DNA of 6,027 bases from Nitrospira sp. (lineage in GTDB: Bacteria > Nitrospirota > Nitrospiria > Nitrospirales > Nitrospiraceae), in assembly GCA_015904075.1 (NCBI GenBank), contig JABMDH010000092.1, positions 9,890 to 15,916 on the forward strand, read 5' to 3'. Made by a program: the position numbers and the translations under genes. Every line of letters begins with the position of its first letter. Position 1 is the first letter of the stretch. Below are positions 1,680 through 2,372 of this stretch, in pieces. The notes below the pieces were generated by a model. The model made no database searches and was not told where the DNA came from. It saw only the letters and a program-made list of their open reading frames with translations.

Positions 1680-2285
1680 ATGGACGTTCAAGACTTTCTA
1701 GTACAAGGCGAAGGCCACGAAGAAGACAAACGCGAAGCCTGGACGCTGTTTCAGCAAGCCTATGAACGGCAGATGAAAGGCGAGCTGGAAGAGGCCGTCA
1801 GCCTATACAAACGATCGCTGGCCACCCACCCGACCGCCGAGGCCTACACGTTCTTAGGGTGGACCTACAGCTTTATGGGGCGGCTCGACGAGGCCATTGA
1901 GGAATGCCACAAGGCTATCGCGCAGGACCCGGAATTCGGCAATCCGTACAATGACATCGGCGCGTATCTGATCGAGAAGGGCGAGTTCGACGAGGCGATC
2001 GTCTGGTTTCAGAAAGCGATGAAGGCCAAACGCTATGAAAGCCCGGCGTTCCCGCACCTGAATCTGGGCCGGGTCTATGAGCGAAAAGGTAAATGGACGG
2101 AGGCGATCGACTCCTATAAGAAGGCGCTTGCTCTCAATCCCAATTACGCCCTCGCCAAGAAGGCGCTGGGACGGTTGATTAGCTCAGCCGCGCAGAAGCA
2201 TATCGACGAACAGCAGGCGATCCAAATCGGGATGAAAGAAAAAGCGGAAGAGTTCAAGAAAACCGGAGCGGAAATATACCGTTAA
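1680..2285 (+). CDS. TPR-repeat protein, first copy, with a ThiC-derived C-terminal tail
   Basis: The product has 201 residues: an N-terminal segment of about 19 residues, then four tetratricopeptide-type helix pairs (roughly 20-51, 54-87, 88-121 and 125-158). The signatures are repeated A-x-x-x-x-G and DEAI/TEAI helices ending in P (ATHP, AQDP, ALNP). There is no signal peptide or membrane segment, so it should be a cytoplasmic protein-binding scaffold; its partner is unknown. Residues 1-169 match the second copy with only two substitutions (E85D, V108L). From residue 170 this copy instead continues with about 32 residues homologous to the end of ThiC (AAQKHIDEQQAIQIGMKEK..., ending TGAEIYR), in the same frame. 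It is therefore a natural gene fusion at a duplication junction. No Shine-Dalgarno sequence is visible before the ATG, and a TAG at 1617 with no intervening ATG, GTG or TTG rules out an earlier start. Translation may depend on coupling or on the hairpin. Confidence 0.85.
   Translation: MDVQDFLVQGEGHEEDKREAWTLFQQAYERQMKGELEEAVSLYKRSLATHPTAEAYTFLGWTYSFMGRLDEAIEECHKAIAQDPEFGNPYNDIGAYLIEKGEFDEAIVWFQKAMKAKRYESPAFPHLNLGRVYERKGKWTEAIDSYKKALALNPNYALAKKALGRLISSAAQKHIDEQQAIQIGMKEKAEEFKKTGAEIYR
2187..2285 (+). pseudogene. thiC: Displaced 3' end of a second thiC, fused to the TPR gene
   Basis: Starting right after AGCTCA at 2181-2186, this segment encodes 32 residues aligning with the ThiC tail at 620-715. 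Both contain IDEQ or VDEQ, then AIQIGMKEK, EEFKKTGAEIYR and a TAA stop. The two tails differ at several positions (for example QKHI versus SKQV), so this is not a very recent copy. The CX2CX4C cluster motif is absent, so only the terminal tail of thiC remains here. It marks the left edge of the second duplicated unit, whose order would have been thiC-thi4-TPR. Confidence 0.85.
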
Positions 2286-2372
2286 CCGTTGTTTGTTAAA
2301 CGTTACGCGCGGGATTCAGATGTTCCGACACGCCGATAACGATTAACGGTTCACGATTCACGAGGTTCACGA
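2278..2372 (+). repeat. Leader of second thi4: bracketing inverted repeat and three TTCACGA heptamers
   Basis: The 86 bases between the fused TPR stop and the second thi4 do not match the short thiC-thi4 spacer. ACCGTTAA at 2278-2285 and TTAACGGT at 2343-2350 are a perfect 8-base inverted repeat bracketing the gap; the left arm includes the TAA stop. Next come three direct copies of TTCACGA at 2350-2356, 2357-2363 and 2366-2372, the last running into the ATG. Short TAACG and TTAACG motifs recur as well. No convincing promoter hexamers were found. This may be simple-sequence intergenic DNA or binding sites for a regulator. Confidence 0.5.
2362..2365 (+). promoter_or_regulatory. Ribosome binding site of second thi4
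   Basis: GAGG lies six bases before the ATG at 2372 and fixes that start. It sits between the second and third TTCACGA heptamers. Confidence 0.55.

Follow-up and report, generated by a model that had tools for sequence, protein, structure and literature searches.

A TPR gene joined in frame to a ThiC tail between two lineage-mosaic tail-thi4-TPR units in a Nitrospira contig

The locus studied here raises the question of how a Nitrospira TPR gene came to run in frame into the last codons of a thiC gene, with a further thi4 and a further TPR gene behind it. The window (the whole stretch of DNA that was analysed, 6,027 nt) fits the genus Nitrospira, and its closest relative among the loci compared is L001, which comes from a MAG (Nitrospira sp. 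isolate bin.260). The features are collected in Table 1. Known RNA families gave no hit in the window at the gathering threshold. ORF 3922-4170 encodes a protein identical in every residue to P0127. The contig given for P0127 measures 15,916 bp, and the window probably belongs to a contig of this size.

Table 1. Features of the window (identities to loci are those of the sequence comparisons described in the text)
Feature	Position	Strand	Evidence or remark
thiC 3' part (phosphomethylpyrimidine synthase)	2..718	+	NF006763 449 bits, PF01964 316 bits; C-terminus intact
Own last 32 codons of this thiC, with stop	620..718		tblastn placement
thi4A, sulfide-dependent-type ADP-thiazole synthase	731..1528	+	TIGR00292 241 bits
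Hairpin repeat, dispersed, ~125-bp, between thi4A and TPRa	1554..1676	.	inverted ends 1554-1572/1658-1676
TPRa::ThiC-tail fusion ORF, 201 aa	1680..2285	+	ORF call, TPR families
TPR part of the fusion, codons 1-169, native type	1680..2186	+	98.6% to L001
TPR/thiC junction	2186..2187	.	0 shared bases directly at the join
Last 32 codons of other-lineage thiC, with stop	2187..2285	+	92.7% to L002
thi4B	2372..3172	+	TIGR00292 248 bits; first ~130 bp L002-like, remainder native type
Hairpin repeat, copy two	~3199..3313 (bounds approximate)	.	85.7% to first copy
TPRb, 171 aa, normal end ...ISSLN	3326..3841	+	93.2% to L001, 93.7% to TPRa
19-codon ORF start, joined to gcvT-like remnant	3890..3949
gcvT-like C-terminal remnant	3946..4170	+	PF08669 59.7 bits for ORF 3922-4170
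Bacterial-globin gene	4507..4926
ORF without family match	5047..5574
ORF without family match	5612..6025	minus

The join between the TPR gene and the ThiC tail is confirmed in the sequence as the earlier note had described it, to the base and in frame. Up to residue 169 TPRa agrees with the Nitrospira TPR protein; there the motif AGCTCA ends at 2186, and TPRa then passes in frame into 32 ThiC codons (2187-2282) that end in TGAEIYR and are followed by a stop at 2283-2285. The normal TPR protein has about two further residues after residue 169, mostly LN, as seen in TPRb and in the best 120 of 7,945 TPR relatives; TPRa swaps those two terminal residues for the 32 ThiC residues. The second thi4 that had been called behind the fusion is likewise recognised by its family profile (thi4B, Table 1). 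A query covering 2130-2290 was compared with 79 genomes of the genus and gave matches in 66 of them. All the listed matches stop at or before base 57 of the query (2186) or start at or after base 58 (2187), and no match spanning 2186/2187 was found in any of the 79 genomes. In 80 loci a ThiC tail adjoining the TPR end was found in none, while a tail match is present elsewhere in 79 of them. An exact 20-base pattern of the junction gave 0 matches in viral contigs. The run of identity directly at the join is 0 in 68/68 thiC loci and in 80/80 TPR loci; the thiC comparison leaves out 12 of the 80 loci, because no thiC alignment extended to the final residue in them. Between the end of TPRb and the thiC tail region, the longest shared word measures 8 bases with L002 and 6 bases with L001 and with the window.

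The relatives carry this locus in single copy. Exactly one thi4 match was found in 70 of 79 genomes and exactly one TPR match in 69; the remaining 9 and 10 genomes, respectively, gave no match at E 1e-60. Within the DNA compared, TPR occurs once per locus in the 80 loci (matches of >40% identity and over half length were counted), and thi4 lies upstream of it in 79, all except L010. In 77 of the 80 loci the thiC query is matched over half of its length or more; L036 and L066 have the tail only and L010 has neither. Downstream of TPR, a receiver-like ORF is found at <1.5 kb in 80/80 loci, and a gcvT-like gene with its N-terminal part at <2.5 kb in 79/80, the exception being L069, where 616 bases were covered. 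Judged from these sequences, single-copy thi4 and TPR appear to be the ancestral state. The earlier note had proposed a search for single-copy loci whose TPR protein already has the tail, and none was found in the 80 loci and 79 genomes. Compared with the single-copy locus of L001 and others, the window shows the same genes, order and orientation; it differs in having an extra tail-thi4-TPR unit and in missing the receiver gene and most of gcvT. As a side observation, the thiC-thi4-TPR-receiver-gcvT neighbourhood is conserved in L001 (5004-10199) and in most of the other 79 loci, and L010 is the sole one of the 80 with TPR but with no thi4 or thiC match in 8 kb upstream.

The two tail-thi4-TPR units of the window are adjacent and in direct order, and the thi4 and TPR offsets are nearly constant (1641-1646 bp). 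The earlier note had read this as a tandem duplication of thiC-thi4-TPR. The direct adjacent copies, the novel join and the single-copy relatives agree with that reading, but the repeated unit includes only the thiC 3' end (last 32 codons) and the copies are lineage mosaics. thi4A and thi4B are 86.5% identical and have an exact 81-bp repeat in common; TPRa and TPRb are 93.7% identical and differ over codons 1-169 at 28 synonymous and 2 non-synonymous codons. The window was scanned in 150-base steps against the loci, among which L081, L086 and L087 repeat L002, L001 and L003. Identity to L001 is ~98-100% for TPRa and for the larger parts of thiC and thi4B (98-100% at the DNA level over thiC 1-650, 98-100% in the steps wholly inside TPRa and 98-99% over 2501-3150 in thi4B). 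thi4A is only 79-85% identical to L001 across most of 701-1350, with 92% in one step and 79-82% over 1001-1350, and its 3' end comes near L001 again (94% over 126 bases of 1401-1550). TPRb shows 93-94% identity to L001 in most steps and 98% in one. The start of thi4B (2401-2550) is 95% identical to L002 and 92% to L001. The fused tail is 86% identical to L001 and ~93% to L002 in the scan. The tail of the thiC at the start of the window is not the one repeated here: DNA identity of the fused tail to it is 81.2%, versus 92.7% to L002 in the pairwise comparison.

Both window copies were placed in trees with 78 loci. thi4B pairs with L001 (support 0.997) and so does TPRa (0.984). TPRb is the neighbour of TPRa and L001 (0.951). 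thi4B, L001, L002, L003 and L006 form a group that excludes thi4A (0.676 for the group, 0.816 with thi4A included). In the tail tree the placement of the fused tail is poorly supported (0.319). The copies are thus not one another's closest relatives, with thi4A and TPRb outside the pairs that their counterparts form with L001. From the copy identities and the trees it was therefore concluded that neither whole unit is a recent copy of the other and that each is a mixture. The larger part of thi4A fits other Nitrospira lineages, as do the fused tail and the beginning of thi4B.

One explanation for this pattern is a plain tandem duplication of the native unit in one genome, followed by patchy replacement from other lineages. 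The direct order with its nearly constant offset, the near-native 3' end of thi4A (94% to L001) and the single clade formed by TPRa, TPRb and L001 (0.951) are all consistent with it. The tail and the thi4B start beside the seam, on the other hand, are foreign, and the later replacement would have had to stop, by coincidence, at the seam or close to it; we consider such a history unlikely.

We infer instead that the junction exists in the living cell and that recombination between lineages made it. A genuine chromosomal rearrangement in a Nitrospira near L001, with inter-lineage recombination, one illegitimate end and an accidental junction, is the explanation to which we give slightly more belief than doubt. 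The inner side of a thiC-thi4 fragment from another Nitrospira lineage would recombine homologously within thi4. Its outer end, inside thiC, would be joined on a sister copy to the resident TPR gene, at the 3' end of that gene and with no homology. This would leave the tail-thi4-TPR unit twice in direct order, patchy in foreign and native sequence, with an in-frame ORF at the seam. A single event with one homologous and one non-homologous end on sister chromosome copies would yield the gene order, and thi4A and TPRb would require further exchange events. At the seam itself the foreign side consists of the tail and about the first 130 bp of thi4B, the native side is TPRa, and the switch back to native sequence lies near 2500. 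No base at the join could be used by a shared-word assembler, which also speaks for recombination.

Related processes have been described in other bacteria. Tandem duplications made by transformation are known from Streptococcus pneumoniae (PMC3784515), and mosaic donor tracts from Bacillus subtilis transformation (PMC13344027). The S. pneumoniae merodiploids would resemble the window in that a direct one-locus duplication is bridged by incoming DNA pairing with sister copies, and the same paper also reports one small duplication of 3,276 bp that no repeats flank (PMC3784515). They differ in that the seam studied there is a hybrid repeat (IS861) and their donor DNA is homologous and of the same species (PMC3784515), whereas the seam in the window has no repeat and its DNA is partly of another lineage. 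Half-homologous integration is reported for three competent species, with a low frequency in E. coli (PMC3240628). This homology-facilitated illegitimate recombination may be alike in having one homologous and one non-homologous end, to which the lineage switch within thi4B near 2500 and the non-homologous join at 2186 would correspond; it is generally coupled to deletion, and most junctions show 3-10 bp of microhomology (PMC3240628). In the window this usual 3-10 bp is missing (0 microhomology at 2186/2187), which counts against recombination. With regard to DNA uptake, comEC-type genes (PF03772) were found in 4/4 relatives and dprA-type genes (PF02481) in 3/4. The two profiles also match 10/14 and 11/14 control genomes, E. 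coli included, and their presence is weak support for DNA uptake because most control genomes match as well. A donor genome and a second independent sequence with the fusion were not found.

A second odd join near 3945 raises suspicion of a bad contig and is a further point against recombination. Here the 19-codon ORF 3890-3949 (MAFNSFEDMPVWQDALRLA) passes near 3946 into the C-terminal section of a gcvT-like gene. Its start, MAFNSFEDMPVWQDALRLA, presumably resembles the start of a four-helix-bundle gene; the start motif was found in none of 98 loci. The receiver gene and the gcvT N-terminal part, kept in 80/80 and 79/80 loci, have no match anywhere in the window. In L001, TPR is followed by a 131-aa receiver-like ORF at 8645-9040 (PF00072 27.3 bits, below the cut-off of 30.2) and by a 363-aa gene with PF01571 and PF08669 at 9108-10199. 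No match across the 3946 join was found in 79 genomes; 9 of the 79 gave short partial matches. A search with the gcvT remnant returned 46 proteins, namely the window's own protein and others of 55-143 aa, and such gcvT-like C-terminal pieces are annotated as aminomethyltransferase T or folate-binding protein YgfZ in some sources. The gene loss near 3945 lowers the trust in the contig, and a second rearrangement is also possible.

A tentative explanation, and in our view a rather doubtful one, is that no cell carries the fusion and that the sequence is a chimera, formed either by a ligated library molecule or by misassembly of co-occurring Nitrospira strains. The lineage mosaic would be expected from mixed strains, the exact 81-bp repeat of thi4A and thi4B offers a place where strain paths can cross, and the second anomalous join with its loss of widely kept genes points in the same direction. 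So does the absence of the fusion from the 80 loci and 79 genomes, as well as the fact that the only other ThiC-tail joins found lie on short contigs. A search with the tail alone (residues 160-201) found six proteins, four of them with the ThiC family. In P0121 the C-terminal part of ThiC follows a start of unrelated sequence (1494-bp contig), and P0123 is a PAS protein with a Nitrospira-type ThiC tail (827-bp contig); both are possibly chimeras. Strain switching at shared words, however, cannot give the TPR-to-thiC order. With no word in common at the join, misassembly through shared words cannot form the seam, but a chimeric library molecule can. The explanation would also need two independent chimeric joins, and the contig is probably 15.9 kb long.

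If the fusion is real, the next question is whether the tail gives the TPR protein a new property. By sequence comparison the fused tail is an ordinary ThiC C-terminus. The L001 ThiC tail is 88% identical to it, and the L001 ThiC query (693 residues) aligns through to residues 608-610 of the solved ThiC chains 3epm and 4s2a, which we take to be Caulobacter ThiC; for the chloroplast ThiC chains 4s25 and 4n7q the alignment stops at query residue 685 of the 693. The idea that the tail is a shared part of Nitrospira TPR proteins was rejected, as TGAE[IV]Y or GMKEK occurs in 0 of the best 120 of 7,945 relatives. This protein set was clustered at 90%, and the window's own 201-aa fusion has no entry in it, though another ORF of the window has one; the absence of further fusion entries is weak evidence because even the window's fusion is absent. 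Judged by titles and the openings of abstracts, no paper on such a TPR::ThiC-tail fusion turned up in literature searches whose aim was not exactly this fusion. On the thi4 side, a THI4 survey (PMC8454699) places the N. defluvii enzyme in its table with THI4s of barely or not detectable activity.

A structure model of the fusion, built on 34 sequences (mean pLDDT 91.8, pTM 0.79), shows the TPR helices and one long last helix at residues 157-200. The TPR core loses two residues. In the tail the block means of confidence are 80-88, falling to 69 for the final residue. No other sequence in the model alignment has the tail, and the extended helix is therefore no more than a prediction. The fusion ORF probably yields a functional TPR protein whose last helix is extended, without any new role under selection, and a neutral extension is the simplest expectation for the tail. 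The earlier note had suggested that the tail might transfer a binding or targeting role to the TPR protein. This suggestion found no support in an ordinary ThiC C-terminus and a longer last helix that is present only in a model. A selected composite protein, in which the TPR protein is brought to ThiC by the tail or chooses other partners because of it, is very improbable in our judgement. The ORF is in frame, the TPR core is complete but for the two terminal residues, and the long helix is predicted with fair confidence. Yet the fusion was found on one contig only, its tail is that of an ordinary ThiC, and a random join falls in frame in one of three cases. Equally slight is the chance that one-step recombination produced both a tandem duplication of thiamin genes and a new TPR protein with a ThiC-binding helix tied to thiamin synthesis.

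If real, the locus is a base-precise case of exchange between related wild bacteria that duplicated a housekeeping locus and created an extended protein at the seam of the exchange. The finding says little about function. Tandem duplications of similar appearance should be checked for lineage copy by copy before they are called duplications.

The spacers between thi4 and TPR carry a dispersed hairpin repeat in both units. It was considered as the breakpoint and rejected; the repeat ends ~500 bp from the seam. An exact 19-base pattern of the repeat gave no match in 90 loci, and a diverged family was found by BLAST and genome searches. This family has matches in 67 of 76 genomes of the genus, and the strongest matches frequently lie in the spacer between thi4 and TPR; L001 and L002 are without the repeat at this position. 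The first copy in the window folds at -68.4 kcal/mol (z -7.3) and the second copy is weaker (z -1.7). A minor difference from L001 was also noticed at the 3' end of ORF 5047-5574 (window 5500-5580), where a short insertion is present and the last translated residues differ, as if frameshifted.
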